IMG/VR virus record: IMGVR_UViG_3300031509_000005
Coordinates: 1-29,318 of that record
Strand: one strand, 5' to 3'
From: a virus
DNA length: 29,318 nucleotides
Of this stretch, positions 62-29,318 are shown piece after piece. The translations under genes were made by a program, and so were the position numbers. Each line of letters starts with the position of its first letter. The first letter of the stretch is position 1. Under the pieces are notes generated by a model that was given only the letters and a program-made list of their open reading frames with translations, was not told where the DNA came from and ran no database searches.

Positions 62-90
62 TTGACAAATTATTTATAATTTATTATAGT
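62..90 (+). promoter_or_regulatory. Early promoter P1 (TTGACA-N17-TATAGT)
   Basis: A perfect -35 box TTGACA (62-67) is followed by a 17-bp A/T spacer and TATAGT (85-90). Transcription would start near 97 and give a leader of about 24 bases before the ATG at 121. It heads the replication-gene cluster. After circularisation it lies directly behind the lysis genes. Confidence 0.75.
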
Positions 91-1662: not shown

Positions 1663-1692
1663 TTGACAAATAAATTATAATATGTTTATAAT
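1663..1692 (+). promoter_or_regulatory. Early promoter P2 (TTGACA-N18-TATAAT)
   Basis: TTGACA at 1663-1668 and TATAAT at 1687-1692 are separated by 18 bp. Both hexamers match the sigma70 consensus perfectly. The site lies in the gap after the RusA operon. Expected initiation is near 1699, giving a leader of about 25 A/T-rich bases for the HTH gene at 1724. Confidence 0.8.
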
Positions 1693-3650: not shown

Positions 3651-3759
3651 ATGGAAAAAAAATTTGTTTTAACAACTTTGTTGGGAAGAAGAAGCGGATA
3701 AAGACTGGTGGGAAGAAGTTAGAAAATTAAAAGTTAGAAATAAGAAAAATGAAATATGA
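3651..3759 (+). pseudogene. Broken small gene containing the DKDWWEEVRKLKV repeat
   Basis: An ATG at 3651 gives only 16 residues (MEKKFVLTTLLGRRSG, stop at 3699-3701). In the +1 frame the sequence continues as WEEEADKDWWEEVRKLKVRNKKNEI with a stop at 3757-3759, overlapping the start of the next gene. This looks like one small gene broken by a frameshift. A +1 programmed shift or a sequencing error is possible. The WW-containing segment is duplicated at 4220 without a start codon. Confidence 0.4.
3697..3736. repeat. 40-bp direct repeat, copy 1
   Basis: Forty bases are identical to 4220-4259. In one frame both copies encode DKDWWEEVRKLKV. Together the two copies bracket the zinc-finger gene at 3749, the inverted repeat at 4078 and the mini membrane gene at 4115. 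The bracketed segment could have arisen by, or be lost through, recombination between them. Confidence 0.9.
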
Positions 3760-4219: not shown

Positions 4220-4259
4220 GATAAAGACTGGTGGGAAGAAGTTAGAAAATTAAAAGTTA
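4220..4259. repeat. 40-bp direct repeat, copy 2
   Basis: Identical to 3697-3736. Upstream in the coding frame there is a stop codon (taa, 4203-4205) and no ATG before the repeat. This copy can therefore only be a remnant (ERDKDWWEEVRKLKVKK and stop), not an expressed gene. Confidence 0.9.
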
Positions 4260-4272
4260 AAAAATAAAAAAT

Positions 4273-5038: not shown

Positions 5039-5305
5039 ATGGATACTTTGACCAGAATACAGCTTTCTATTATGGTCTTCATTAAAAAATGGTGTGATAA
5101 ATTTCCTAATGACCCTGTTCCTCAACAAAAGATTTTGAAAAAAATGAAAGAATTAGGAATAAAAAGTTATTCTACTTTAAACGCTATTAATTCTTTAATT
5201 AATAAAGGTTATATTAGAAAAGCGGTTAAATCAGAAAAACACAGGACTTTTTATGTGTTGTTGAGAAATGTTATAATAAATGACGAAATTGAGCTGGAAA
5301 TATAA
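5039..5305 (+). CDS. Winged-helix DNA-binding protein, candidate late regulator
   Basis: This 88-residue protein reads as a complete winged helix: helix 1 (RIQLSIMVFIKKWCDKF), helix 2 (QQKILKKMKELGI), recognition helix (SYSTLNAINSLINKGYIRKA) and wing strands (HRTFYVLLRNVI). It follows promoter P3 and the structured leader and precedes the small terminase by 25 bases. It could regulate the late promoters or act with the terminase on the packaging site; neither is proven. Confidence 0.65.
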   Translation: MDTLTRIQLSIMVFIKKWCDKFPNDPVPQQKILKKMKELGIKSYSTLNAINSLINKGYIRKAVKSEKHRTFYVLLRNVIINDEIELEI

Positions 5306-5794: not shown

Positions 5795-7168
5795 ATGGAA
5801 GAGATAACTATTCCTTATAATTTTACCCCAAGAAACTACCAGTTGAACTTTCTTCGTGAAGTTGAAAGGGCGATAAATGGAAAAAGCCAAAAGAGATTTT
5901 TTTATCTTGTTTGGCATCGACGCTCCGGGAAAGATAAGGTAGTGATTGCTGATGTTGTTCCAAGAAGACTTATTTTGAATAATTGTTTGGTTAAGTATAT
6001 TTATCCTACTTTAGTTATGGGAAGAGACAATCTTTGGAATGGAATTGGCTCTGATGGTTTCAGATATATAAATCATATTCCACCACAATTAAGATTAGAT
6101 GAACCAAATGAAACGAGAATGACCATAAAAACAAAAAATATTCAAGGCGGAGAAAGTATTTTTCAAGTGGCGGGGACAAATAATCCAGATAGTCTTCGTG
6201 GTGGAAACCCAGTTTTAGTCGTTTTTTCAGAATGGGCTGAACACGATCCTTATGCTTGGGATGTGATTGAGCCCATTTTAAGAGAAAACAAAGGAATTGC
6301 AATTTTTAACACAACTCCAAAAGGAGACAATCACGCACGAAGTTTGTTTGAATTTGCTAAAAACAATGATTTATGGTTTGTTGAAACTTTAACTTATAAA
6401 GAAACTGGTATTTTTTCAGAAGATGAGTTTAAAAGAATAAAAGAAGATGTTATAAAAAGATTTGAGGCACAAGGAAGAACAGAAGAAGAAGCAATATCAT
6501 ATATCGAACAAGAATATCTTTGTTCTTTCAATTCACCCGTTGTTGGCTCGTATTATGGAAGCTTGATGAGAAAAGCCGAAGAAGAAGGAAGAATAACAAA
6601 AATTGCGGTTGAAAGAAATTTTCCAGTCTACACGGCTTGGGATTTAGGAATTGATGACTCAACGACTATTTGGTTTTTTCAAGTGATTGGAAATGAATTT
6701 CATTTTATAGATTATTTTGAAGCAACCGGAGAAGGATTAGAATTTTACATTAGAGTTTTACAGCAAAAAGGTTATGTTTACGCTAAACATTTCGCACCAC
6801 ACGATATACAGGTTAGAGAGCTTGGGACTGGAAAATCAAGATGGGAAATAGCTAAAAGTCTTGGAATAACATTTGAGATAGCACCAAGACTTTCAGTTGA
6901 AGAAGGTATAAATGCGGTAAGGACAATTTTAAATAGATGTTGGTTTGATAGGGATAAATGTAGTCGTGGAATTATGGCTTTAAAAAATTACAGAAAAGAT
7001 TGGGACGAAAAAAATAAAGTTTTTAGAAAAACACCTCTTCACGATTGGTCTTCGCACGGAGCTGATGCTTTTAGAACATTTGCGGTTGGTTTTAAAAAAC
7101 AATTACAGCCGATTAAAATTACAAGTTATGGTGGCGTAAAGCCCTTTTATGAGGATTTGGGAATTTGA
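5795..7168 (+). CDS. terL: Terminase large subunit (packaging ATPase-nuclease)
   Basis: The 457-residue motor translocates DNA through the portal and cuts the concatemer. The ATPase half has an adenine-binding FTPRNYQ (residues 10-16), Walker A WHRRSGKDKV (about 40-49), Walker B-type PVLVVFSEWAEHDPYAWD with catalytic Glu146, and a TTPKG coupling motif near 172. The nuclease half starts near 270 with AWDLGIDDSTT (Asp283) and ends with WSSHGADAFRT (Asp424), giving RNase H-like metal ligands. Length is usual for TerL. The Walker A ends in Asp where many enzymes have Thr, a variation known in this group. Circular permutation implied by the contig would fit headful packaging, but I cannot assign the mechanism from sequence. 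Confidence 0.95.
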   Translation: MEEITIPYNFTPRNYQLNFLREVERAINGKSQKRFFYLVWHRRSGKDKVVIADVVPRRLILNNCLVKYIYPTLVMGRDNLWNGIGSDGFRYINHIPPQLRLDEPNETRMTIKTKNIQGGESIFQVAGTNNPDSLRGGNPVLVVFSEWAEHDPYAWDVIEPILRENKGIAIFNTTPKGDNHARSLFEFAKNNDLWFVETLTYKETGIFSEDEFKRIKEDVIKRFEAQGRTEEEAISYIEQEYLCSFNSPVVGSYYGSLMRKAEEEGRITKIAVERNFPVYTAWDLGIDDSTTIWFFQVIGNEFHFIDYFEATGEGLEFYIRVLQQKGYVYAKHFAPHDIQVRELGTGKSRWEIAKSLGITFEIAPRLSVEEGINAVRTILNRCWFDRDKCSRGIMALKNYRKDWDEKNKVFRKTPLHDWSSHGADAFRTFAVGFKKQLQPIKITSYGGVKPFYEDLGI

Positions 7169-7170
7169 TG

Positions 7171-7198
7171 TTGCGAAAAAATATTTTTATCGTCTAAA
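7171..7198 (+). promoter_or_regulatory. Class II promoter-like site upstream of portal
   Basis: TTGCGA (7171-7176), 16 bp, TCTAAA (7193-7198), then 10 bases to the portal ATG. It belongs to a set of four similar sites (7171, 12117, 14241, 18090) with the same -35-like box, a shared A/T spacer pattern and the same 16-bp spacing. If used, the message would start about four bases before the ATG. Confidence 0.55.
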
Positions 7199-7208
7199 CT
7201 TTTAAAAT

Positions 7209-8996
7209 ATGGCAAATGAAATTCTAACTAACGATCCAGAAATAGAAATATTACGATTGAATAAAGAATCTGCTTACAATTTCAAAAGAAGAAGACAAGA
7301 GGAATGGAAAGAGAATTATTTGCTTTACCGGGATAATGTTATTACAAACAGACTTACACAAAGACAATCAGTCAATATTCCTTTAATGAAATTGTTTATT
7401 CGAACACTTTTTAAAGATATTGACGATATGCCTCTTATTTATTTTGAAAACCTTGATAACGACAAGCAAGCTGAACTTTTCAAAAATGAGTATTGGGAGT
7501 ATACAGTAAGAAAAAATAAACTGGATTTAAAAGATTTAGCTGATAAAAAACAAGTTCTTCTCTTTGGAAGAAGTTTCATTCAAATTCAAGTGGTTGATGG
7601 AGAAATAAAATTCACAGTTGTTGATCCTGAAGATATTTTAATCGATAGATACACAGACCCACTTGATATTCACTCGGCTCGTTATCTTATTCACACCAAC
7701 ATTTTCGTTCCTTTTTCGGTTTTGGAGTCAAATCCAATGTATGATCAAAGAAAAATAGATGAATTAAAAAAATGGTTTGCTTCGGAAAAAGGATTAATAA
7801 AATCACAGCAAAATGAGGAAATGAGAAGAGAAAAACAAAACAAAATGGCTGAAATGGGAGTTCCTGATGTTTCAAATCCGATACTTAGTGAAACTTATGT
7901 TGAGTTATCCTTACATTTTTTTAAGCATAAAGAAAAACCAGAAGAGGAAGAGGAGTTTTGGCTTTATGTTGAGGCGGAAGATAGCAAAATCATCTTTAAA
8001 GACAAATTATCAAATGTTATAGGCGATACAGTTGATAACTACTGGAAAACACATCTTCCTTATTCTACTTGGACTGATGATATTGAAATTCAAGACTTTT
8101 GGTCTGATGGGATTGCCGACATGATAAGAACGCCAAATAAAGTTGTAAATGCTTGGTTTTCACAGTTGGTTGAGAATAGAACTTTAAGAAGTTTTGGGAT
8201 GCATTATTACGATTCAACTAAATTTTCAGATAGCGGTTATAGTCCAGCTACATTTATTCCACAGCCTTGGGGTTGGTATCCTATTCCGGGAAAACCAACA
8301 GATGTTATTCAAAAAGTTGACATTCCAGATTTATCCGAAAGTCTTGATGAAATAATGTTTGTTATCAATATGATGGAAAAAGCAACAGGAGCAACAGCCA
8401 CACAACAAGGAGCAGCAATTCAAAAACAAATAACACTTGGCGAAGTTCAGTTGGCTTTAGGTGAGGCAAAAGAAAGAATAAAAGGTTGGAGTAAGTTTTA
8501 TGTTCCAGCTTGGAAAGAAAGAGCTGAGATGTTTGTAAAAATGATTGAAGCGGCTTCTGATAAGTTGAATCCAGTTAAAATTTATAAACAAGGAAGAAAT
8601 ACAAAAAATGTTTTTTCAAGAGAAATATCACCAAAAGATTGGAAAACAAAAAGCGGTTATCAAGTTAAGATTTGGAGTTTAGATGAGAAAAATACAAAAG
8701 ATACCGATACTTTAACCAAATTAAATGCGGTTATGGTTAATATGCCGGAAAACCCAAAACTAAAAGAAATTTATCAAAGAAAACTTTTAGAGTTTGCTGG
8801 ATTAAGCCCTGATGAAATAAATGATGTTTTAGAATATGAAAATCAAAAAAAATTACAAATTGATCAACTTGCCTCATCTGGGACAATGGGTGAGATGCCA
8901 GTAGGAAATACTGCGATGCCTCAACTTCCGGCTGGACAAATACTATCACCAAATAACACACTAAGCAGGCAAGTTAATCCTAATCAAAGCTTATGA
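7209..8996 (+). CDS. Portal protein
   Basis: The 595-residue product directly follows TerL. The N-terminal helical region (residues 15-75) includes RRRQEEWKENYLLYRDNVI. The wing/stem region has LFGRSFIQIQVVDGEIKFTV and VVDPEDILIDRYTDPLDI (about 115-150), a pattern typical of portals. A long helical region with an ATQQGAAIQKQ/LGEAKERI segment (about 395-430) precedes the crown. The C-terminus is Pro/Gln/Asn-rich. Portals form the dodecameric ring through which DNA is packaged and ejected and to which the adaptor binds. The stop overlaps the next start (ATGA). Confidence 0.9.
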   Translation: MANEILTNDPEIEILRLNKESAYNFKRRRQEEWKENYLLYRDNVITNRLTQRQSVNIPLMKLFIRTLFKDIDDMPLIYFENLDNDKQAELFKNEYWEYTVRKNKLDLKDLADKKQVLLFGRSFIQIQVVDGEIKFTVVDPEDILIDRYTDPLDIHSARYLIHTNIFVPFSVLESNPMYDQRKIDELKKWFASEKGLIKSQQNEEMRREKQNKMAEMGVPDVSNPILSETYVELSLHFFKHKEKPEEEEEFWLYVEAEDSKIIFKDKLSNVIGDTVDNYWKTHLPYSTWTDDIEIQDFWSDGIADMIRTPNKVVNAWFSQLVENRTLRSFGMHYYDSTKFSDSGYSPATFIPQPWGWYPIPGKPTDVIQKVDIPDLSESLDEIMFVINMMEKATGATATQQGAAIQKQITLGEVQLALGEAKERIKGWSKFYVPAWKERAEMFVKMIEAASDKLNPVKIYKQGRNTKNVFSREISPKDWKTKSGYQVKIWSLDEKNTKDTDTLTKLNAVMVNMPENPKLKEIYQRKLLEFAGLSPDEINDVLEYENQKKLQIDQLASSGTMGEMPVGNTAMPQLPAGQILSPNNTLSRQVNPNQSL

Positions 8997-9614: not shown

Positions 9615-9644
9615 TTGACAATAAATATTTTTTGTTTTTATAAT
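9615..9644 (+). promoter_or_regulatory. Promoter P4 (TTGACA-N18-TATAAT)
   Basis: TTGACA (9615-9620) and TATAAT (9639-9644) are perfect consensus hexamers with an 18-bp spacer, as in P2. Start expected near 9651, about 26 bases before the ATG at 9677. It would drive the 79-residue protein and the scaffold. Confidence 0.8.
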
Positions 9645-9939: not shown

Positions 9940-9957
9940 CCTAAACCCTATTTTAGG
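9940..9957 (+). promoter_or_regulatory. Short hairpin before the scaffold gene
   Basis: CCTAAA (9940-9945) pairs with TTTAGG (9952-9957) around a 6-base loop, 15 bases before the scaffold ATG. The run of T expected of a terminator is absent. It could insulate the start codon from upstream translation or mark an RNA-processing site. Confidence 0.35.
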
Positions 9958-9972
9958 ACAGGAAATAAACCT

Positions 9973-10832: not shown

Positions 10833-10860
10833 TTGACATATAATATATTAATTTGATAGT
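10833..10860 (+). promoter_or_regulatory. Capsid promoter P5 (TTGACA-N16-GATAGT)
   Basis: TTGACA (10833-10838) is followed 16 bp later by GATAGT (10855-10860), echoing the TATAGT of P1. Initiation would fall near 10867, at the edge of the hairpin that begins at 10865. It lies in the gap before the major capsid gene, which also has its own terminator. Confidence 0.65.
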
Positions 10861-10864
10861 TTAT

Positions 10865-10920
10865 TAATGGAAGATAAAACTTCTAACCTCTTCGTGAGAC
10901 GAAGGAATAATCTTCTATTA
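10865..10920 (+). promoter_or_regulatory. 5' stem-loop leader of the capsid message
   Basis: TAATGGAAGAT (10865-10875) pairs with ATCTTCTATTA (10910-10920): 11 pairs, one G-U. Inside, CTTCG and CGAAG close a small 5-base loop (10890-10904). The stem would lie at or within two bases of the 5' end of the mRNA, a position known to protect transcripts from 5'-end-dependent decay. An 18-codon frame (10867-10923) covers the whole stem. The capsid ATG follows 22 bases after it behind an A/T tract. Confidence 0.65.
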
Positions 10921-12074: not shown

Positions 12075-12108
12075 TTCCCCCCGTCTAAATGGCGGGGGGA
12101 ATTTTTTT
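12075..12108 (+). terminator. Strong intrinsic terminator after the capsid gene
   Basis: A stem TTCCCCCCGTC (12075-12085) pairs with GGCGGGGGGAA (12091-12101), 11 pairs with one G-U and loop TAAAT, followed by seven T (12102-12108). It is by far the most GC-rich element of this AT-rich genome and the only clear rho-independent terminator. It separates the capsid message from the fibre genes, which therefore need their own promoter. Confidence 0.95.
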
Positions 12109-12116
12109 AAAACCTC

Positions 12117-12144
12117 TTGTGTATAAATAGATTTGTATTCTAAT
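12117..12144 (+). promoter_or_regulatory. Class II promoter-like site upstream of the fibre gene
   Basis: TTGTGT (12117-12122), 16 bp, TCTAAT (12139-12144), 11 bases to the ATG at 12156. It sits eight bases beyond the capsid terminator, where a new promoter is required for the genes that follow. This is the best contextual support for the class. The spacer begins ATAAATAGATT, identical to the start of the spacer at 14241. Confidence 0.6.
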
Positions 12145-12155
12145 ATTTATTTTAT

Positions 12156-13229
12156 ATGGCAGATAAAAAGATTACCGAACTAAATCAGATAACAACTATT
12201 GATCCAACAGATATATTTCCTGTAGTTGATAATCCATCAGGAAGTCCAGAAACAAAAAAATCAACTTTCCAACAATTGGCTGATTGGTTGGCTTCTTTAA
12301 GTCAAACATTGGCTAATAAAACTTTAATTTCATCTACTTTACAGGCAAATAATAATGTTGCCGTTGTTTCTCAAAAAGACAACACTGGGACGGAAAGAAA
12401 TATATTAAAGTTAAATTCCTCAAATGATTTAGAGATTGGGGGTGCTGGTATATCAAGTTATAAACTAAATAATTCAATCATCAAACCATCTTCTGATTCA
12501 ACTTCTGCGATTAAAATAACAAAAGCAAATGGAACGACTACTATATTAAATATAAACAGCACTAATAACTTTGTCGGCATCGGGACGGATAATCCAGTAA
12601 GAAAATTACATATTTACGATACAGATAGTAATGGTGGTTTAAGATTAGAAGGTGGTTCGGATGGACCAAATATTGAATGGAGAACTGGCACTACAAGACA
12701 TTGGAATATTGACCAAGAGGGGACAAATCCTAATTTACGTTTTTTTACAGAAAATTCATCAGACGGAGAGGGAGCGGTAAGGATGCTAATAACAGAATCA
12801 GGTAATGTCGGCATCGGGACGGATAATCCAGCATATAGATTAGATGTCAACGGTCAATGTCACGCTTCTTCTTTTCCAACTTCATCAGATAAAAGATTTA
12901 AAGAGAATGTAAAAGAGATTAATAATGCTTTAGAAAAGGTTAAAAAATTAAGAGGAGTGTATTTTAATTGGAATAAGTTTTATAGAGAAACATTAGAAGT
13001 AGATGAGACTGAAGATACAGAAATTGGTGTTATAGCACAAGAAGTAAAAAAAGTTATCCCAGAGGTTGTTACCACTTTTAAAAGAGAAGTTGGTGGAAAA
13101 AAGAAAAAATATTATTCAGTTGAATACGCAAGGTTATCGGCTTTATTGATAAACGCTATTAAAGAATTAGCCGAAAAAGTTGAAAATTTAGAGAAAAAAT
13201 ATGGAGAAATTAACAACTCAAGAGCTTGA
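12156..13229 (+). CDS. Tail fibre/spike with C-terminal S74 chaperone domain
   Basis: The N-terminal segment (MADKKITELNQITTIDPTDI, residues 1-20 and on to about 55) is a common virion-attachment module of phage fibres. The middle is beta-rich with two NFVGIGTDNP/NVGIGTDNP repeats. The C-terminal 113 residues are an intramolecular chaperone/autoprotease of the S74 family: SSDKRFKENVKEINNALEKV with cleavage expected at Ser244-Asp245 (residues 243-247 SSDKR), then GVIAQEVKKVIPEVV, YYSVEYARL and ALLINAIKEL. The chaperone trimerises the fibre and then cuts itself off. Mature length would be about 244 residues. Its 3' end overlaps the next gene by 29 bases. Confidence 0.88.
   Translation: MADKKITELNQITTIDPTDIFPVVDNPSGSPETKKSTFQQLADWLASLSQTLANKTLISSTLQANNNVAVVSQKDNTGTERNILKLNSSNDLEIGGAGISSYKLNNSIIKPSSDSTSAIKITKANGTTTILNINSTNNFVGIGTDNPVRKLHIYDTDSNGGLRLEGGSDGPNIEWRTGTTRHWNIDQEGTNPNLRFFTENSSDGEGAVRMLITESGNVGIGTDNPAYRLDVNGQCHASSFPTSSDKRFKENVKEINNALEKVKKLRGVYFNWNKFYRETLEVDETEDTEIGVIAQEVKKVIPEVVTTFKREVGGKKKKYYSVEYARLSALLINAIKELAEKVENLEKKYGEINNSRA
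12572..12597. repeat. 26-bp repeat within the fibre gene, copy 1
   Basis: Twenty-six bases encoding the VGIGTDNP motif are identical to 12806-12831. The GC-rich codons (ggc, atc, ggg, acg) contrast with the surrounding A/T-rich coding. The identity at silent positions suggests recent duplication or conversion, or imported sequence. Confidence 0.85.
12806..12831. repeat. 26-bp repeat within the fibre gene, copy 2
   Basis: Identical to 12572-12597, 234 bp downstream and in the same reading frame (234 is a multiple of three). Recombination between the copies would delete 78 residues and leave a shorter in-frame fibre. Confidence 0.85.
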
Positions 13230-13401: not shown

Positions 13402-14250
13402 ATGAAGTTATACAGCAGAGGAACATTTCCATTAACAACAAATATTTATGCTTTAGATGATAGTGATTTATCTACTTTGTATAGTAATAACGAGATTTCA
13501 ATTGTAGATAATGAAGATGATACCTATGTTGATTTAAGCGGTCAAGATTGTTATCTTGTCCATTTGTTTAAAATTTCAGTTGGAGTAAATAAAAAAATAA
13601 CTATTAAATGGGTAGGAAAAACTTCATTGTCTCCAACTCTTTCACCTGTTTATTTTGAAATTTACAATCATTCAACTGGACTTTGGGAAACAGTTGATAT
13701 AAGATATTTAGGCTCGGCTAATGTTAATTTTACTTTAAGTTATAAAATTGAAGCTTATATAGAAAATTACAAAAAAAACAACAATATCTCTGTTCGTGTT
13801 TTACAAAGAAACGATCAATATAATACTGTTTATGTTAAATATTATTTAAAACAAGAAAACTCTTTTTTTTTGCTTCTTGAGAATAGTTCCTTTATTTTAA
13901 CGGAAGAAAGCTATAATGTTAATATTCCAATCACTTATACTTTATCCACCGATTATTTTAATGTTTGTCTTCCTTATTTTGAAAAATATTATGATGTATT
14001 TAATTATTTACTTCTTGAAGATGGTGGCTATTTACTTCAAGAAAATTATTATAAAATTGGATTGGATAATAAATTTAATAAATTTTTAAACAAATATGAT
14101 AGAAAAAATTCTATTTATAGTTTAAAATATAGTCTAAAAAATACCTCATATAACAGTAAATACCAAAATAATAATCCTCCTACTTATTCTTTAAAATATT
14201 CAAAGAAAAACACCATTTATACTGATAAATATACAAATTGTTGCCAATAA
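13402..14250 (+). CDS. Putative tail/fibre structural protein with C-terminal repeats
   Basis: This 282-residue protein is beta-rich and aromatic. The first 120 residues look like a jelly-roll or Ig-like domain (FKISVGVNKKITIKWVGK). Two LLLE-type motifs follow (LLLENSSFILTEE near 155-167 and LLLEDGGYLLQEN near 199-211), a motif common in phage fibre proteins. The last 50 residues hold two near-copies of a 16-residue unit, YSLKYSLKNTSYNSKY and YSLKYSKKNTIYTDKY, and end CCQ. A virion-surface role is likely from composition and position; the family is not recognised. The ATG at 13402 gives the long frame; an ATG at 13395 in another frame does not. Confidence 0.6.
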   Translation: MKLYSRGTFPLTTNIYALDDSDLSTLYSNNEISIVDNEDDTYVDLSGQDCYLVHLFKISVGVNKKITIKWVGKTSLSPTLSPVYFEIYNHSTGLWETVDIRYLGSANVNFTLSYKIEAYIENYKKNNNISVRVLQRNDQYNTVYVKYYLKQENSFFLLLENSSFILTEESYNVNIPITYTLSTDYFNVCLPYFEKYYDVFNYLLLEDGGYLLQENYYKIGLDNKFNKFLNKYDRKNSIYSLKYSLKNTSYNSKYQNNNPPTYSLKYSKKNTIYTDKYTNCCQ

Positions 14251-14268
14251 ATAGATTAATAGTTTATC
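14241..14268 (+). promoter_or_regulatory. Class II promoter-like site upstream of the tail protein at 14277
   Basis: TTGCCA (14241-14246), 16 bp beginning ATAAATAGATT, TTTATC (14263-14268), eight bases to the ATG at 14277. This is the weakest member of the class at the -10-like box. The -35-like box and spacer match the site at 12117 closely. It overlaps the end of the preceding gene. Confidence 0.4.
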
Positions 14269-14276
14269 ATTTTTTT

Positions 14277-15650
14277 ATGATATATCATATTAACAAATTT
14301 TCAGGCGGAATTTCAGATTATGAGGATAAAGGAATTCCGGGAGCTTTTAAGTTTGGAAAAAATTTAAATATAAGAAGGATTACTGACAGTCTCTATTGTC
14401 AACAGGCTTTAAAAGAAGAAGGAAGCGGAGTATTTACTGACTTAATAAGATGGTTTGTTAAATGTTCTGATGGAAATTTGTATGGTTTTGGAAGTAGTGG
14501 TAAAATTTACAAAAGAACAAACGGGGTTTGGTCAGTGGTTTACACTGATCCAGATGGAGAAATAAAAGGAGCAGAAGAATTGGTTCAAAGTAATGGGACT
14601 AAATATTTAGGTTGGTGTAATAATACAAAAATTAAAAGAAAACCAATACCTGGATTATCTAACTGGTCTGATGTTTCAACGCTTGCTTCTAACTTAACTT
14701 CGGCTAAATGGCACACAATGAAACAAATTGCTGGGGCTACAAAAATAGCAAATTATGATAAGTTGGCTATGGTTGGTTATGATGGAAGCTGGACAAATGA
14801 GGCTTTAGCTTTAATTCCGGGAAATATCGCAAAAACAATTATAGAAAGAAACGGTAGAACTATCATTGGGTGTTATAAAGTAAATGAAGAAGACAGGGGT
14901 ATAAATTCTCAAATTGATGCTGAATTTCCTTTAATTCAGGTTGGCAACGATGGAGATATATATTTAGCTGATATGTCAAATACTATTCCGATAAAAAGGT
15001 TTCCCGGTGGTGGAAAAACTAATCCCGGTGGAGTTTGTAATTATTATGAACAACCGCAGATTTTTGAATGGGAAGAGACGGCTTTGTCTTGGATTGACAA
15101 ACAGGAAGTTGGAAATTTAGCTTATTTTGGCGTTTATGGAGGGGTATCGGGATATAATGGAATTTATAGTATTGGAAGATTAAATAAAAATAGACCTTTT
15201 GTTTTGAATTTAGATTATAGCTTGGAGGCTGATGAAATTGGAGCGATTGTTAATTTTAATGGAACTTTAATAGCAAGCTATAAATCTGGTTCAACTTATG
15301 GAGTAAAATCAGTTGATCCATCAAACAAAGCAATTGGCGTATATGAAGGATTGGATTTAAAAATAAAGCCAAAAGGTATAAGTAATATTGTTCAGTGGAA
15401 ATTTGCGGAGTTGACAATGTATCCTTTACCTTCTGGTTGTTCGGTTGAATTTTGGTTTAGAATTGATAAAAATGGTAATTTTGTTCAAGCAAAAACAATT
15501 GACGGAACTAACTCATATAATAAAACTGGTGGTAAAAAAGCTCATTTTTCAATTCAAGAAGAAGGTGAGATATTTGAACCACGAGTGGTTTTAAATCCAA
15601 ATGGTAATGTATCACCAGAAGTTTATGATATTAAAATTTATTTTGATTAA
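14277..15650 (+). CDS. Tail structural protein, beta-propeller-like (nozzle candidate)
   Basis: The 457-residue protein has many short beta repeats: KCSDGNLYGFGSSGKIYKR, then NDGDIYLADMSNTIPIKRF, then YFGVYGGVSGYNGIYSIGRL. The pattern reads as a propeller with about six blades (residues about 50-360), followed by a beta-sandwich C-terminal domain with VEFWFRIDKNGNF. The N-terminus YHINKFSGGISDYEDKGIPG resembles the start of short-tail nozzle or tubular-B-type proteins. Those proteins have propellers and lie at the tip of podovirus tails. The start at 14277 is preferred over one 13 codons upstream because the longer form overlaps the previous gene. Confidence 0.6.
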   Translation: MIYHINKFSGGISDYEDKGIPGAFKFGKNLNIRRITDSLYCQQALKEEGSGVFTDLIRWFVKCSDGNLYGFGSSGKIYKRTNGVWSVVYTDPDGEIKGAEELVQSNGTKYLGWCNNTKIKRKPIPGLSNWSDVSTLASNLTSAKWHTMKQIAGATKIANYDKLAMVGYDGSWTNEALALIPGNIAKTIIERNGRTIIGCYKVNEEDRGINSQIDAEFPLIQVGNDGDIYLADMSNTIPIKRFPGGGKTNPGGVCNYYEQPQIFEWEETALSWIDKQEVGNLAYFGVYGGVSGYNGIYSIGRLNKNRPFVLNLDYSLEADEIGAIVNFNGTLIASYKSGSTYGVKSVDPSNKAIGVYEGLDLKIKPKGISNIVQWKFAELTMYPLPSGCSVEFWFRIDKNGNFVQAKTIDGTNSYNKTGGKKAHFSIQEEGEIFEPRVVLNPNGNVSPEVYDIKIYFD

Positions 15651-18089: not shown

Positions 18090-18117
18090 TTGCGAATAAA
18101 TATCTTTATCTTCTAAT
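18090..18117 (+). promoter_or_regulatory. Class II promoter-like site upstream of the adaptor gene
   Basis: TTGCGA (18090-18095), 16 bp, TCTAAT (18112-18117), then 12 bases to the ATG at 18130. The sequence after the -10-like box (ATTTA) is the same as at 12145. It lies in a 94-base gap with no other clear signal and would drive the adaptor, ejection and giant-protein genes. Confidence 0.58.
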
Positions 18118-18129
18118 ATTTAAATTATT

Positions 18130-18789
18130 ATGAATACTTTTTCTGAATTAATAGATGCGGTAAAAAGCGATTTATCAATACCTACAACCAGTAGTCTTTT
18201 TAATGATACTACTATTAAATCTGCTATAAATAGAGCATATATTAAATGTAGTTCTTTATATCCTTGGCCTCAACTTGAAGATGCTTTAACTACATCAACT
18301 ATTGCTAATCAAGAATATTACGATTATCCAAACAACTGGCAACCCGATTCAGCTTGGAGACTTGAGGTTGATGGTGAAGATTATGGCGATCCGTTAGTTT
18401 TTAAAGACTATCTTTACGAAAAAGCCAATGGTATACCATCGGGAGCAGATAGACTATGGTCAACACAGTGGAAAAGGTTTTTTATTTATCCAACACCAAC
18501 AAAAAATGGAAATAATAATATAACAATTTGGGGATTAAAGACAGTAGATACTTTAGTCAATAATAATGATACTACTATTTTTTCTTATTCAATGCCAGAT
18601 TGTAATGAAGCAATAGTTTTAGAAGCCGTTGCTATATTAAAGAAAAAAGGCGAAGATGAACAACCGGGTCAATTTAGAAGTTTAGAAGCAAAACAAATTT
18701 TAGCTTTTGCTTGGGATAAAATTCAGAAAAATCAGAATAAATATAAAAAAACAACAACTTTTTTTGAAGTTAATGATTTTTTTAAATAA
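18130..18789 (+). CDS. Head-tail adaptor (P22 gp4 / T7 gp11-like)
   Basis: The 219-residue protein starts NTFSELIDAVKSDLSIPTTS, with FNDTTIKSAINRAYIKCSSL and a WPQLEDA turn. A beta section (YYDYPNNWQPDSAWRLEVDG) and a C-terminal helical part (NEAIVLEAVAILKKKGEDEQ) follow. This pattern is that of adaptor proteins that bind below the portal and gate DNA in short-tailed phages. The length is usual. The position is unusual: it comes after the fibre genes rather than directly after the capsid gene. Confidence 0.75.
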   Translation: MNTFSELIDAVKSDLSIPTTSSLFNDTTIKSAINRAYIKCSSLYPWPQLEDALTTSTIANQEYYDYPNNWQPDSAWRLEVDGEDYGDPLVFKDYLYEKANGIPSGADRLWSTQWKRFFIYPTPTKNGNNNITIWGLKTVDTLVNNNDTTIFSYSMPDCNEAIVLEAVAILKKKGEDEQPGQFRSLEAKQILAFAWDKIQKNQNKYKKTTTFFEVNDFFK

Positions 18790-19960: not shown

Positions 19961-22900
19961 ATGGCAGTATGGACTTTGGAAACAGCAGAACAACAATCAG
20001 GAATAAAAATTTCATCACCACAATCGCCTTCTCCAGAAGGTAGCGTGTGGGATTTAAATACCGCAGAAACATATGTAAATTATGAAGCGTCAAAACCTAA
20101 ACAACCATTAACAATATCTCAACCAAAACAAGTAGCAACTACCTCATCTTTTTTTGAAGGGTTTAATAAAATAAAAGAGAATGTTATTAAAATAAAAGAT
20201 GTTATTTTTTCATTTGTCCCAAAACCAGTTAAAGAAGAACTAAGTAAAGTAAGACAAGGATTAACTCAAGGGGTAGAAAGTATTAGTATTTATGATTTAT
20301 TTCCTTTTTTACCCAAACCAGTATACTCACCAGAACCGGAGGGAAGTAAAGGAGATATAAAAGCATTACAAAAGCAATATGAACAAAGTTTAATTGGCAA
20401 ATTTGATGATAAATTTCAAACATCAAAAAACAGTTTTATCAAAGGCTTAACTGGTGGAATTATTAAACCAAAAGAAAAAGTCAATCCTGATTTAGCTGAT
20501 AAGATTATCGCTGGTGTAAGTGAAGCGGTTGGAACAGCAATTACTATTCAAAATATAGGAACAAGACTTTTTAGTTTAGCAGAAGGATCTACTTTGGTTA
20601 AAAACTTTATTGAAAATTATCCTCGTTTAGCTCGTTATACTTTACCACTTTTAAAAAATATTGGGGCGTTTTCAATTTATGGACAGTTAGATCCAGATTT
20701 AAAAGATAGGTTTAAAAAACTTGCTGAAGATGTAGTTGTTTCAGTTCCATTTACTGCTTTGGGATTTGTTGAAAAAGCAAGATATTCAATTCCGGCTTCT
20801 TTTGGTTTGGGATTTGGATTGGCTAAATTAAGTGGCGCTTCAAATGAAGACGCTTTTGTTTCCGGTGTAGTTTTGGGAATTTTAGATGGTTGGGGAAGAA
20901 TGAAAGGAAGAGTATCTGATTTTGTAAAAGGAAGACAAACTGATAAAATTTTAAGAGTTGAAGCTTTAAAAGTTTTAAATGAATATTCTGATATTAAAGT
21001 TAAATTAGGTGATCCGATTGAAAAAATAAATGAGGCTTATCGTTCAGCATCAAAAAAAGTTCATCCAGATATTACTGGTTCAACAAAAGAACAAATAGCT
21101 TTAAATTCTGCTTACGAATTTTTGACTGGAAAATCAAAAAAATTTGACCCATCTATCTTTACAAAAGAAAGATATACACCACAGGAAATAATAAATGAAA
21201 TTATTAAAAATGGTTATGATAAGACAGAAGAAGGAAAAAAACTTATAAAAGGAGCGTTGGAAGCGGAAAATAAAAATCAAGATATAGTGGTTATTCAACC
21301 AAAAAAACCAATAATCACTGAAAAAAAACCGAAAATACCACCAGTTATTACAAAAGAAATACAAAGTAGACAAATACAAAAATTAATTAAAGATATTCCT
21401 GATTTAAGTAAAGCTAAAGATTATGTATCAGCAAAAGATTTTGCTGATGCTCTTTTTTCGGCTCAAGAGACTAATCAGATCGGTAAATTATCACCAGATA
21501 AAATAATTGCTCGTGATTCAGTTGATGAAAAAGGAGTAGCGGATTATATTAAAATGATAGAAGAAGGTAAAAAAGTAGAACCAATTGAAATACAAAAAGA
21601 AGGTGATAAATTTATAACAGTTGACGGCTCTCATAGACTTGAGGCTTTTAGAAGCTTAAATAAAGAAGTTCCAGTTATATATCGCGGTAAAGATAAAATT
21701 GATGGGTTATACACATTTGAAGAGATATTTAATACATTAAAAACCTCTTCCCCATCTATTTCGGAAGTTAAATCAGCAATTACTTCTGAACAACCTTCTC
21801 CAAAAACAACTGGGAAAGAAGTTAAGAAATTTGATATTAGTAGCAAATATGGTTTTGATAAAGTAGATGAGGCTTTTTCTCAAACACCATCGGATCTTGA
21901 TGATAGATGGAATACTGCTAATGAAAAGCTTGATAAGTTTAAAGCTCCATTACAGGAAAAAATAAATAAGTTAAAAAATGAGTTAGAGAAAATAAAAAGT
22001 GATAGAAGTAAGGAAGCAATTGATAGAAAAAAAGAAATAAATAAAGAAATTGAAAATCTTCAGCAAAAAATATCAGAAGCCGAACAAATACTTGAGGAAA
22101 AACAAACTGAATTTAATATGAAACTTGGAAAAATGGCTTTACAAAAAGCAAAAGAAATGGGATTAGATTTAGGTGAAATTGGAGATGGTTATACTAATGT
22201 AAGTGAAAAATGGCAAGAATTTAGAGATGAATTTTTAGTAAGAATTAGCGAGCGACCATATACTGATCATTATTGGGATACTCCATTAAATAAGATTTTA
22301 GAAGATTTAGTAAAACAGTATGGAGTTGAACCAAAAACACAAATAAAACTAGAAACAAAATCTGAAGTTAAACCATCAGAAGAAAAAATAAAATTAGTAG
22401 AAGAAACAAAACCAGAAATATCTCCAGAATTTCAATCATTAGTAGAAGAAGCAAAGAATTATAAAAGCGCGGAAGAATTTGTAAAAGAAAAATTGTTTGA
22501 AGCATACATAAGGCAGTTTGGAGTAGAAAGAGAACTTACAGAACCAGAAAGGAAGGGATTATATCCATCTTTTTTAAAAGATATTAAAAAATATGGATTG
22601 GAAGAAGTTGGCAGACAAATAAGAAGTTATGCGTCGTATCATAAAAGAAATGTTCCAGATATTTTGACCCGTCCTTCCAAATTAATCGAAATTTATAACT
22701 TTGCTCATAAAGAAATATCAAAAGTTAAACCATCAGAAAAACTAAAAGAACAGATAACTGAACAAGTTAAAACAAAAATACCTCCCGAACTTGAACCCTT
22801 TATTAAAGAAGCAAAAAAATATAAAAGCGTAGAGGAATTTATTGAGCAATTTAAAACAAGACCAGAAGAAATTGCTAAATCAATTTATCAAGGTCTTTCT

Positions 22901-25900
22901 GAGCGTCAAAAATATATAATAGAAGAAGCTTTTAGTAAAGCTGTAGAAGATCGAATGACACCAGAAGCAAGAAAATTAAAAGAAACAGTAATAAAAAAAT
23001 GGGCAAGAAGAGATGCTATGATAGAACTTCTTACCGAAATTTATAACGAAGCTAATAGAAGAACAAAACAAATTAATTTATTATCTGAAAATGAAGTATT
23101 TTTAAATAGGGAAAAAAGAATATTAGAAAATATACCGTTAAAAAGCTCACCAGTTGGTCTTTTTTCTTTTGATTTTTTATATAATATAGTGGATGTTCCT
23201 GACTATTTTACTGATGGTTATCTTTTGTTAACTGATAGATATTTAAATGAAGTTGAAAAATGGAAAAACGAAGCAATTAAAAAAGCTAAATATATTAACG
23301 ACTACACAAAAGAAGATGTAGAAAAATTGTTTAATAATCTTGGAAATAGAAATGAATTAGTTAAAATTGATGGAAATAATTTTTATATAGGTTTAGTTAA
23401 AATAGGAAAAGAAAATGAAAAGCCTTATGTTTTATTATATGATAAAAATAATAAAACGAAAATACTTTTAAATTCAGAAGCATACAAATGGTTAAAAAAA
23501 GAAAGATATGATTTTTATTACAATCCAAATATAGCTGATAAAACAGAAGAAACTTATTCAAAACCAATTCTTTTAAAAAGAAATGGAAGAGAAGCAGGAT
23601 TGATAATGCCTACAAGATGGGGTGGTAGAAGTTTAAATGAAGAGGTTGACAAAATAGAAAAAGATACTAAAATAGAATTATATGGCACAAAACGAGATAA
23701 TTTTCCTGGGCGAGAAACTGGACAAAAAGAACTTTCCAGTTCTATATCGGTGGGCGAAAAGCAATCCGGAAACATTGAAAGAACAAGTGATGAGGTTAGC
23801 AAACCAGCCGGGGGGGAGTATAATAAACGCTCTTCAGTCTCTGGAAAGCGACCTTCAACACGGCTAACACCATCACAGCAACAACAAATAAATGCTAAAG
23901 AGGAAATTAAACAAAAAGAGCAAGAATTTAAACAAAAACTTGAAAACGCTAAAAAAGAAAGAATCAATTTAATCGCAAAAGAAAATGATTATAATACTTT
24001 AGTTAGAAGATTGGCTGAAGAAAATAAAACATTTTTTGTTAAAAGAAGTTTGTTTACTACAGATACAAGAAAAGCTCCATCGGGATTTGCTGATGTTGGT
24101 GGTTATTCTAATATAAAAAGTCCAGAAAAAATTATTAATGATATAAAAGCGGTTGAGTTTCCAGAAATTCTTCGGATTGCTAAAAATTTGTTAGGTAAAG
24201 AAGTTAAGTTGTCTTCAAGATTTAAAACTGCTTTAGGCGCTTTTTATCCAAAAACATTTGATATTAAATTAAGTTATGAGATATTTAAGAAACCAGAATT
24301 AACCGCTAAAGTTTTAGCCCACGAACTTGGTCATTTAGCTGACTTTTTGCCTGATAAAACAATGGCAAGAGGAAATTTAGTTGGTAGAATTGCTACTCTT
24401 AAAAAACATTTAAAAAATCTTTATGGAGAATTAGACAATAGAGTAATAAGAGAAGAATTAAAAAAATTAACGCAACTTTGGAAACCATTTGGTGAAAACG
24501 CTAACCCAAAATATACAAAATATCGTTATTCATCATCAGAATTATATGCTGATGCTATATCGGTTTTATTTAACGATCCAGCTTTATTAAAAGAAAAAGC
24601 TCCAACATTTTGGGAGGGATTTTTTGAATATTTAGATAGAAAACCTGAAGTGATGGAAAACTTTAATGAAATTTGGAATTTATTAAATGAAGGAGAAGAC
24701 GCGGTATTTAAGAAAAGAGATGAGGAAATTGACAAAATGTTTAGCAAAGCAGAAGAAAAATTTAAAGCAAAATATGTTGATAGAGAAATGAGAAATAAAA
24801 ATTTAGTCTATCAAATAAAAATTTTATTTGACGATGTTAACAGACCAATTATTGAAAGAATAAACAAATTACAAAAAGAAGGAAAAGTAATTCCACCAGA
24901 ATTAAATCCAGAATATGCTTTAAAAGGACTTCTTTATTCGGATGCTGAAGTTAAAAACTTTATTGAAGATAATTTACAGCCAGCTTTTAATAAAGCAAGA
25001 GAAGTAGAAGATGGTTGGAATAAATTGGGAAAAATATTATTTTATGAACGGGTTATTTATGAACGAGGCGAGCTTGCTAATCCTTTAGGTTATGATCCAA
25101 ATACTGCTTCATTTAATTTAAAGAAAATGGAAGAACAAATGTCGGCTGAAGACTGGCAAAAACTTCAAGAAGCAAAAAAACTATTTAGAGAAGGAGTTAA
25201 AAAAGTTATTGATTTAGCAGAAAAAGAAGGATATTATACACCAGAAACATTAAAGGAAATGAAAATGAACCCGGCTTATGCTACTTTTCAAGTAATAGAT
25301 TATTTAGATACATATATTAGTCCAAGAGTTTATCATCAAGTTGGAACTTTAAAAGAAATATCAAATCCAGCAACAGCAACAGTAATGAAACTTATCTCAA
25401 CTTATAAAGCAATAAAAAGAAACAAAGTTAAAAAATTAAATATTAACTTTTTAAGAGAAAATTTTAGCAATGAAATTGAAAAAGCAAAAACAAGATGGAA
25501 TGGAAAAAGTTTAGATATAATGATGCCAAAAGATGAAAATTTAGGATTGGTAATAACAATAGAAAACGGAAAACCGCAGGGTTGGTATGTGCCAAAAGAT
25601 GTAGCTGAGACTTTAAATTGGGCAAGTAATTCTACTTTAGAAATGCTTGGTAATGTCGCAAGAGCTATTTCTCAAAGCAATTTTTATAGACCATTATTTA
25701 CAATATATAATCTTGGCTTTCAAACATTTAATTTTGTAAGAGATTTAAGTCGTGCTTGGAAAAACTATCCTCATAAAACATTAGCCGAAGTGCCGTTATC
25801 TCCTATTATTGATGCTTATAAATTAGGAAAGGGATATATAAAAGCAATAAAACCAGCCTTTAAAAAAGCTTTTGGATTAAGAGATGAGTTAATAAAAGAA

Positions 25901-27322
25901 ATGGAAAATGCTAATATTTTAGGTTTATCTTATAATGATGTTTTTTCCGGTGAAATACCAACCGAACAACAGCAAATTGAAAGAATTTTAGAAGGATATG
26001 GATTATTTGCGAAAAAAAAGAAATTTAAAATATTGTCTCCAATAATTAATGTTTTAGAAACGGTGGGAAAAGTTGGTGATTTTATTGAAACTTTACCAAA
26101 AGTAGCCGCATATGTAAATTTAAAAGGTGAAATGCCACCCGAACAATTAGCAGAATTTATAAGAACATCAATCGGTTCTCCAGCTTTTAGAGTAAAAGGA
26201 AGAGCAACACCAATAACTAATTCAATTTTCTTATTTTCAAATGCGATAAAAGAAGGTTTAAAGACAGATTTATATATAGCAACTGGTAAAAGAGGAAAAG
26301 CGAGTGCCTCATCTTTTTGGTATAAAACATTTTTGGTTAATATATTACCAAAAGTAATTATAATGGCAATTGCTTTAGGATATTTTGGCGATAGACTAAA
26401 AAAAATTATTAACGGAATATCAGAATATGACAAAACAAATTATAACATAATTCCAATTGGATTAGATGAAAATGGGAAATCTGTTTTTATTAGAATTCCT
26501 CAAGATGAAACTGGAAGATTTATTGGTGGGTTATTTTGGAAAACGATGAATATTAATAAAGATTATGGAATAGTAAAAAGCGTAATGGATGTTCTTTCAT
26601 TTGGGGCTGGACAATTACCAAATCTTTCTCCTTCATTTATTGGGCTTGGTGTTTTAATATCTTATTTTTCTGGTAATAATCCTTATGATTTTTATAGAGA
26701 CAGACCAATTATTCCGGAAAAAGAATTTAAAGCGGGCTTTCATCGTTCATTTCCTATTCTTTTAGATTGGTTGGTAAAAAATCAAGGATTGGCAATAGTA
26801 TTACCATCTTATAGTCCTAAAAATCCAACTGCTTTGGAAAAATTTTTATCTTTACCAGTAATTTCAAATATTATTGGAAGATGGATTAAAGTTTCGGATC
26901 AAGGATTAAGAGAAAAACTTTCAAAGAGTGAAAAATTAATAGAACAAAAAAAAGCAGAAAGGTATTTGGAAATTAGAGATAGGATTGATGATTATGTTAA
27001 AGAGTATCAAAAAAATCCAACGATTGAAAAAAGAAAAGAATTAGAAAGAAAATTATTAAAAGAATTTTTAGAAAAAGGTTCATCAAGTCAAGAAAAAACT
27101 AATCTTATTAAAAGGTTTAGAGTAGCAATTATTAAAGGAAAAGACAATCCATATTTAAATAGTTTAATTTATTCTCAAACAAATGATGAAAAAGTTGAAA
27201 TATTAAAATCAGCAAATAAAGAGTTATCAAATGAAGAATTTAAAAGTATTTTAGAGACAGCAAGAAAAAACAAAATAATTGGTAGTGAGGTTATTAAAAA
27301 GTTAAGAAGACAATTAAAATGA
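19961..27322 (+). CDS. Giant polyvalent virion protein: J domain, ParB-like, HExxH protease, membrane segments
   Basis: This 2,453-residue protein takes about 25% of the genome. In order: a short WTLETAEQ/VWDLNTAE duplicated N-terminal motif; hydrophobic helices (about 180-310); a J domain (about 327-390) with the HPD tripeptide at 368-370 (SASKKVHPDI); a ParB-like domain (about 505-585) with FITVDGSHRLEAFR at 551-564; coiled coil (about 650-720); two related helical units (EFQSLVEEAKNYKSAEEF near 823, ELEPFIKEAKKYKSVEEF near 944); a beta domain (about 1130-1220); a polar linker (about 1240-1305). A metalloprotease follows with HELGH (His1454, Glu1455, His1458) and a downstream Glu1527 in SSSELYADA. 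The C-terminal region is helical, with NFVRDLSRAW near 1924 and hydrophobic segments near 2120-2150. Such mosaics are called polyvalent proteins and are thought to be injected with DNA to act on the host. Exact C-terminal families are unverified. Confidence 0.85.
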   Translation: MAVWTLETAEQQSGIKISSPQSPSPEGSVWDLNTAETYVNYEASKPKQPLTISQPKQVATTSSFFEGFNKIKENVIKIKDVIFSFVPKPVKEELSKVRQGLTQGVESISIYDLFPFLPKPVYSPEPEGSKGDIKALQKQYEQSLIGKFDDKFQTSKNSFIKGLTGGIIKPKEKVNPDLADKIIAGVSEAVGTAITIQNIGTRLFSLAEGSTLVKNFIENYPRLARYTLPLLKNIGAFSIYGQLDPDLKDRFKKLAEDVVVSVPFTALGFVEKARYSIPASFGLGFGLAKLSGASNEDAFVSGVVLGILDGWGRMKGRVSDFVKGRQTDKILRVEALKVLNEYSDIKVKLGDPIEKINEAYRSASKKVHPDITGSTKEQIALNSAYEFLTGKSKKFDPSIFTKERYTPQEIINEIIKNGYDKTEEGKKLIKGALEAENKNQDIVVIQPKKPIITEKKPKIPPVITKEIQSRQIQKLIKDIPDLSKAKDYVSAKDFADALFSAQETNQIGKLSPDKIIARDSVDEKGVADYIKMIEEGKKVEPIEIQKEGDKFITVDGSHRLEAFRSLNKEVPVIYRGKDKIDGLYTFEEIFNTLKTSSPSISEVKSAITSEQPSPKTTGKEVKKFDISSKYGFDKVDEAFSQTPSDLDDRWNTANEKLDKFKAPLQEKINKLKNELEKIKSDRSKEAIDRKKEINKEIENLQQKISEAEQILEEKQTEFNMKLGKMALQKAKEMGLDLGEIGDGYTNVSEKWQEFRDEFLVRISERPYTDHYWDTPLNKILEDLVKQYGVEPKTQIKLETKSEVKPSEEKIKLVEETKPEISPEFQSLVEEAKNYKSAEEFVKEKLFEAYIRQFGVERELTEPERKGLYPSFLKDIKKYGLEEVGRQIRSYASYHKRNVPDILTRPSKLIEIYNFAHKEISKVKPSEKLKEQITEQVKTKIPPELEPFIKEAKKYKSVEEFIEQFKTRPEEIAKSIYQGLSERQKYIIEEAFSKAVEDRMTPEARKLKETVIKKWARRDAMIELLTEIYNEANRRTKQINLLSENEVFLNREKRILENIPLKSSPVGLFSFDFLYNIVDVPDYFTDGYLLLTDRYLNEVEKWKNEAIKKAKYINDYTKEDVEKLFNNLGNRNELVKIDGNNFYIGLVKIGKENEKPYVLLYDKNNKTKILLNSEAYKWLKKERYDFYYNPNIADKTEETYSKPILLKRNGREAGLIMPTRWGGRSLNEEVDKIEKDTKIELYGTKRDNFPGRETGQKELSSSISVGEKQSGNIERTSDEVSKPAGGEYNKRSSVSGKRPSTRLTPSQQQQINAKEEIKQKEQEFKQKLENAKKERINLIAKENDYNTLVRRLAEENKTFFVKRSLFTTDTRKAPSGFADVGGYSNIKSPEKIINDIKAVEFPEILRIAKNLLGKEVKLSSRFKTALGAFYPKTFDIKLSYEIFKKPELTAKVLAHELGHLADFLPDKTMARGNLVGRIATLKKHLKNLYGELDNRVIREELKKLTQLWKPFGENANPKYTKYRYSSSELYADAISVLFNDPALLKEKAPTFWEGFFEYLDRKPEVMENFNEIWNLLNEGEDAVFKKRDEEIDKMFSKAEEKFKAKYVDREMRNKNLVYQIKILFDDVNRPIIERINKLQKEGKVIPPELNPEYALKGLLYSDAEVKNFIEDNLQPAFNKAREVEDGWNKLGKILFYERVIYERGELANPLGYDPNTASFNLKKMEEQMSAEDWQKLQEAKKLFREGVKKVIDLAEKEGYYTPETLKEMKMNPAYATFQVIDYLDTYISPRVYHQVGTLKEISNPATATVMKLISTYKAIKRNKVKKLNINFLRENFSNEIEKAKTRWNGKSLDIMMPKDENLGLVITIENGKPQGWYVPKDVAETLNWASNSTLEMLGNVARAISQSNFYRPLFTIYNLGFQTFNFVRDLSRAWKNYPHKTLAEVPLSPIIDAYKLGKGYIKAIKPAFKKAFGLRDELIKEMENANILGLSYNDVFSGEIPTEQQQIERILEGYGLFAKKKKFKILSPIINVLETVGKVGDFIETLPKVAAYVNLKGEMPPEQLAEFIRTSIGSPAFRVKGRATPITNSIFLFSNAIKEGLKTDLYIATGKRGKASASSFWYKTFLVNILPKVIIMAIALGYFGDRLKKIINGISEYDKTNYNIIPIGLDENGKSVFIRIPQDETGRFIGGLFWKTMNINKDYGIVKSVMDVLSFGAGQLPNLSPSFIGLGVLISYFSGNNPYDFYRDRPIIPEKEFKAGFHRSFPILLDWLVKNQGLAIVLPSYSPKNPTALEKFLSLPVISNIIGRWIKVSDQGLREKLSKSEKLIEQKKAERYLEIRDRIDDYVKEYQKNPTIEKRKELERKLLKEFLEKGSSSQEKTNLIKRFRVAIIKGKDNPYLNSLIYSQTNDEKVEILKSANKELSNEEFKSILETARKNKIIGSEVIKKLRRQLK

Positions 27323-29191: not shown

Positions 29192-29318
29192 AAAGGATAA
29201 TGAGAAAATATTATAAACAAAAAGCAATTTTTTTAATTGGTTTAAAATCCTCTTGACAAATTATTTATAATTTATTATAGTCATTTTATAAAAATTAAAT
29301 TAAATTAAAATATGGTAA
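29192..29318. repeat. Terminal direct repeat, right copy
   Basis: Identical to 1-127. Joining the two ends at this repeat places promoter P1 about 140 bases after the holin gene and closes the map without breaking any gene. Confidence 0.95.

Follow-up and report, generated by a model that had tools for sequence, protein, structure and literature searches.

Four virion genes of an uncultured phage are preceded by promoters of sigma70-type layout whose -10 elements nearly touch the start codon, and the same promoters precede the same genes in distant relatives. The four sites lie in the window, the 29,318-base stretch of viral DNA (29% GC) analyzed here. Sequence comparison lends good support to this promoter class, to its register and leaderless placement, and to its conservation in a gene-specific manner. 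The favored explanation, at a probability of about 0.55, is that these are leaderless late promoters read by the host polymerase, with a phage factor acting at -25 and with a choice between TTGC and TTGACA at -35 that sets the dose of each product.

Since it is bounded by a perfect direct terminal repeat of 127 bp (1-127 = 29192-29318), the window is probably a complete, circularly assembled genome. Its gene products include the large subunit of terminase, a portal of SU10 type, a major head protein and an S74 tail fibre, and few of its genes have Shine-Dalgarno sites. One ORF of 2453 aa (19961-27322), a quarter of the genome, adjoins the tail genes. The early region holds two 52-bp direct repeats that are 92% identical (3697-3748 and 4220-4271), the first of which extends up to the ATG at 3749. 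Portal searches returned three close viral contigs, and a related capsid protein is encoded in 64 viral loci. Comparison with annotated phage records turned up no DNA match for the window's first 25 kb and a single capsid match, a weak one to a Pelagibacter phage. The phage belongs to an uncultured SU10-portal podovirus family.

Promoters abutting the virion genes

The preliminary description paired TTGCGA with TCTAAA (7171), TTGTGT with TCTAAT (12117), TTGCCA with TTTATC (14241) and TTGCGA with TCTAAT (18090), each across 16 bp. On re-reading, these hexamers were found as given, as were the ATAAATA in three of the four spacers and the 8-12 bases between the second hexamer and the ATG (7209, 12156, 14277 and 18130). 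The register itself was revised. A shift of 2 bp, to an 18-bp spacer, turns all four -10 elements into TAnnnT, so that the elements are sigma70-like rather than odd: a TTG-containing -35 and a TAnnnT -10 stand 18 bp apart at every site. The 16-bp register was rejected; in the relatives only 9 of 178 such sites lie 5-11 nt before an ORF. If transcription starts about 7 nt past a -10 element that ends 6-10 nt before the ATG, the leaders would be about 0-4 nt long, slightly shorter than the 2-6 nt first estimated. Three of the sites are intergenic, as had been stated; the one at 14241 overlaps the 3' end of a gene whose stop ends at 14250. The site matching 12117 reads TTGCGT in two relatives (L002 and L004). 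Coordinates are given in Table 1.

Table 1. Promoters, RNA hairpins and genes in the window
Feature	Position	Strand	Description
Early promoter	62..90	+	TTGACA-N17-TATAGT; no -25 TA; second copy at 29253-29281 in terminal repeat
Early promoter	1663..1692	+	TTGACA-N18-TATAAT; no -25 TA; precedes HTH1724
HTH5039, candidate late regulator	5039..5305	+	Small winged-helix protein conserved in family
Portal promoter	7171..7200	+	TTGC class; TTGCGA-N18-TAAACT; -25 TA at 7182-7183; 8 nt to ATG 7209; conserved before portal in relatives
Portal gene	7209..8996	+	SU10_portal match
Late promoter, TTGACA class	9615..9644	+	TTGACA-N18-TATAAT; -25 TA; precedes gene 9677 and scaffold gene; 32 nt to ATG; leaderless in several relatives
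Leader hairpin before scaffold gene	9940..9962	+	Conserved in relatives
Late promoter of major capsid gene, TTGACA class	10833..10862	+	-25 TA; 80 nt to ATG
Leader hairpin before major capsid gene	10880..10904	+	Conserved in relatives
Intrinsic-terminator-like hairpin, strong	12075..12101	+	Between capsid gene and promoter 12117
S74 tail-fibre promoter	12117..12146	+	TTGT class; TTGTGT-N18-TAATAT; 9 nt to ATG 12156
Tail-fibre gene	12156..13229	+	C-terminal Peptidase_S74 chaperone domain
Gene 14277 promoter	14241..14270	+	TTGC class; TTGCCA-N18-TATCAT; 6 nt to ATG 14277; conserved in relatives
Gene 14277	14277..15650	+	Structural region; no named family; conserved beside its own promoter
Gene 18130 promoter	18090..18119	+	TTGC class; TTGCGA-N18-TAATAT; 10 nt to ATG 18130; conserved in relatives
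Gene 18130	18130..18789	+	Tail-protein-like; weak phrog_10775 match

The motif originally put forward for a search, TTGYSA-N16-TCTAAW, recovers two of the four sites in the window, misses the other two and has one unrelated match. In the new register, TTGY-N6-ATA-N11-TAnnnT has exactly four matches on both strands (0.42 expected), and none of 100 shuffled windows reached four. This pattern was composed after the sites had been seen, and a matrix trained only on relatives (87 sites at distances 5-9, close relatives left out) therefore serves as the independent test. Scored with the TTGC-class matrix, the four sites rank 1-4 in the window (26.0, 23.8, 21.1 and 19.4), and the next site scores 12.4. 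The matrix of all 87 sites places them in the top five, alongside the promoter at 9615.

In 68 loci of relatives, some of which overlap so that site counts are not all independent, 75 of the 222 sites matching TTG[AC]-N20-TAnnnT are followed at 5-11 nt by an ORF of 50 aa or more. Other spacings within 15-20 bp give 4-9 such sites, and scrambled controls give 1-6. The distances peak at exactly 6 nt (36 of the 75), which would put +1 on the A of the ATG. Counted as in TA-led genes, the first T of TANNNT lies 12-16 bp before the ATG in the window, and the peak in relatives is at 12 bp. Positions -25 to -23 strongly prefer T, A and G (51, 57 and 37 of 70 non-identical sites in relatives). The spacer consensus there is AATAG and ATAAATA is not conserved; the spacer similarity noted earlier is nevertheless meaningful, in that TA(G) at -25 is conserved. 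In a blind scan, a strict pattern, TTGC-N5-AATAGTTT-N6-CTAnnnT-N6-ATG, was found in four of 2.9 million viral contigs, all of the same phage family, and each match precedes an orthologue of the portal gene, gene 14277 or gene 18130. An off-by-one variant of this pattern, an accidental control for the scan, had 0 matches. Absence of the motif before the same genes in relatives had been named as grounds for abandoning the class; the motif is present there, and the distinct, near-leaderless class before structural genes stands.

Promoter class, gene and module

Leaderless promoters before orthologues of the portal, fibre, 14277 and 18130 genes have TTGC or TTGT in 38 of 41 cases, and those found before the gene 9677-scaffold and capsid genes have TTGA (TTGACA class) in 31 of 31. 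This split by gene has a Fisher p of 3e-17, a value overstated because the relatives share ancestry. Assembly calls for few copies of portal and tail parts and for hundreds of scaffold and capsid, so that the TTGC/TTGACA split is naturally read as setting dose through promoter strength. At 19 of 24 capsid orthologue loci (the window counted), such a TTGACA-class promoter stands upstream of the capsid gene, at about 60-90 nt, and an RNA hairpin lies in between.

A hairpin of the form CC[A/T]AAC-YYY-loop-RRR-[A/C]CGG is found upstream of both the scaffold and the capsid gene throughout the family, and also before some genes near the small terminase. In the hairpin alignment (A4), 98.9% of pair cells are kept and there are 44 double changes. 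Rfam gave no match to the leader hairpin in the window. The hairpin perhaps serves translational control.

Early and late promoters were compared in the window and seven long relatives, with the module assigned by position relative to HTH5039 and not by timed data. Among TTGAC[AT] promoters, a TA at -25 is present in 20 of 29 from the late module and absent from the other 9, and it is present in 1 of 12 from the early module (Fisher p=5e-4, likewise overstated by shared ancestry). Spacers of 17 bp occur in 7 of the 12 early and 2 of the 29 late promoters. Late-module promoters thus differ from early ones in the -25 TA and in spacer length, in agreement with the earlier distinction, and by this comparison a TA(G) step at -25 is a mark of late promoters, consensus TTGACA ones included. 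TTGACA promoters had also been said to have longer leaders. In the window this is so (62, 1663, 9615 and 10833; 30-80 nt from -10 to ATG), but many TTGACA promoters of relatives are leaderless, and leaderlessness is therefore not peculiar to the TTGC class. In one relative (L123), TTGACAATACAnnCG-type promoters at 5862, 7199 and 12369 have a longer motif in common, which is perhaps an early operator.

Likely hosts and the reading of the promoters

Related capsid genes are present in genomes assembled from metagenomes and labelled as Woesebacteria and Paceibacterota (Patescibacteria), which makes Patescibacteria the likely hosts; this assignment comes from two metagenome-assembled genomes with related contigs, and misbinning is possible. 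A capsid relative (55%) is also present in a 156-kb contig, possibly a prophage, of one Thermoanaerobaculia genome (L074), and the leaderless motif was not found at that locus. Each of the six genomes sampled (G001, G002 and a further four from the phylum of G001, partly sampled) shows TAnnnT in excess at 6-9 nt before the ATG, at about 10-22% of genes, so that leaderless messages appear ordinary in the likely host phylum. G002, a Paceibacterota genome (loci L096-L115), has a strong TGGTAnnnT peak exactly 6 nt before the ATG. Its element is an extended -10 with no visible -35, and leaderless genes look common in its lineage. Across 59 genomes of the likely host phylum, the three-part form of the phage shows no enrichment (8 matches versus 16 for a shifted pattern), and host use of the same form was rejected.

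The motif, its position, its gene-specific conservation and the late/early difference are features of the sequences themselves, and from them we infer the start sites, leaderless translation, strength, timing, and a phage factor and its identity. The promoter is built of TTG(C/T) at -36, TA(G) at -25 within the 18-bp spacer and TAnnnT at -12 to -7. Transcription would begin at the ATG or within a few bases of it, and ribosomes would translate the leaderless message with no Shine-Dalgarno site. With TTGACA in place of TTG(C/T), this layout would drive the scaffold/capsid operon, and the capsid gene itself would have a long leader containing the hairpin. Most likely the host sigma70 polymerase reads both classes. 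A phage factor would recognise the -25 element and restrict the promoters to late infection, and TTGC and TTGACA would give weak and strong output for few-copy and many-copy virion proteins, respectively. That a phage factor takes part is reasoned conjecture, at about even odds, and its identification as HTH5039 is less certain still.

HTH5039 is predicted by AlphaFold with a mean pLDDT of 82.6 and has weak Foldseek matches to winged helices of the MarR/Fur/MecI type. It is present in motif-bearing records that include the upstream region and absent from 12 of 13 motif-free relatives, the remaining one having a divergent copy. This co-occurrence fits a late regulator and equally simple descent, being confounded with phylogeny. 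HTH1724, also suggested earlier as an activator, was found only in the closest of the relatives compared and is thus unlikely to be the factor of the family. An inverted repeat, ATAG-N9-CTAT, was rejected as an operator (17 complementary versus 16.1 expected), and with no palindrome in the -25 element a dimer operator is not evident. With working positive controls, eight records gave no match to sigma70 region 2 (PF04542), although a very divergent sigma factor could be missed; a phage sigma factor was rejected on this result. A search for a single-subunit polymerase had no working positive control and carries no weight.

These observations bear on several other explanations. Host sigma70 polymerase might read both classes alone. 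TTGC would then act as a weaker -35 holding few-copy proteins at low output, the -25 TA(G) would be a DNA-shape or host-sigma preference, and neither a phage factor nor special timing would be involved. The sigma70-like elements seen after re-registering, the agreement of the class split with copy number, the -25 TA common to both classes and the lack of a region 2 match in the eight records all accord with this. It is considered unlikely, if still to be reckoned with, in view of the early consensus TTGACA promoters, which lack the -25 TA and often have a 17-bp spacer, and of the three-part form not being enriched in genomes of the likely host phylum. More improbable is the version of the preliminary description, in which the TTGC sites alone form a distinct late class served by a polymerase that the phage has modified or by a dedicated activator. 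TTGC sites do precede structural genes only and are distinguishable from TTGACA sites at -13 and other positions too; the -25 element, however, is shared with TTGACA late promoters, so that lateness is not marked by the TTGC box, and HTH1724 was found only in the closest relative compared.

The portal falls in the SU10_portal family, and SU10 is related to phiEco32. Phages phiEco32 and 7-11 use a sigma factor of their own (PMC4331800), and a sigma factor or polymerase encoded by the phage, on the model of these phages or T7, could be imagined here. The negative region 2 search, with its positive controls, and a motif unlike TAATGTATA or TGATGT make this very improbable. Hardly credible is a motif that arises by chance or as a translation-related, AT-rich signal before the ATG and is not a promoter: at 29% GC the genome is AT-rich before all starts, but the TTG-TAnnnT coupling at 18 bp is strict, controls are low and the motif is conserved before orthologues.

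Known systems and significance

The available portions of two papers (Zheng et al. 2011, PMC3160421; Deinococcus-Thermus, PMC12340547) describe bacterial TA-led leaderless genes, in which TANNNT lies about 10-12 bp before the start codon, and no treatment of Patescibacteria or phage genomes was found in those portions. TA-led genes share with the promoters reported here a sigma70-like -10 beside the start codon and the lack of a leader and a Shine-Dalgarno site; the present promoters differ in serving phage structural genes and in having a fixed -35 at 18 bp and the extra -25 TA(G). The late promoters of phiEco32 and 7-11 have an TAATGTATA/TGATGT core read by a phage sigma factor (PMC4331800). 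They too form a podovirus family-specific late class before structural genes with a layout conserved between relatives, but the boxes here are sigma70-like, no region 2 match was found in the eight records, and the consensus, TTGCcTtnaaATAGttT...TcTAttCT, does not contain that core.

The ATAAATA in three of the four window spacers resembles T4 late promoters (TATAAATA, no -35). A T4-type late -10 was rejected: the -35 is conserved here, relatives do not preserve ATAAATA, and that sequence falls at about -25 with respect to the conserved -10. Promoters activated in the manner of lambda CII have TTGC-N6-TTGC around -35, and the second position reads ATAG or ATAT at all four sites. Promoters of MerR-type activators have a dyad in a spacer of 19-20 bp; the spacer here is 18 bp, and the candidate dyad ATAG-N9-CTAT is unsupported. 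The leaderless gene of lambda is cI. Leaderless initiation in lambda is noted in PMC3160421, and in that phage, too, the promoter of a phage gene abuts the ATG; lambda has one such gene, whereas here the design is repeated across a set of virion genes.

Literature searches that combined leaderless genes with either Patescibacteria/CPR or phage late promoters, with most subscription papers outside their reach, found nothing describing such promoters. Gene control in Patescibacteria phages, on which these searches found nothing, seems to be little known, and few Patescibacteria hosts can be grown. It is tentatively suggested that a phage protein, perhaps HTH5039, acts at the -25 TA(G) box to switch on a leaderless late regulon of virion genes in Patescibacteria phages; if true, late control would work here by reading the spacer, unlike in the phage late systems known so far. 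The signature is family-specific, gene-specific and exact to the base, and may be used to read true starts, late genes and relative dose. It would provide a testable case of leaderless expression serving virion assembly.
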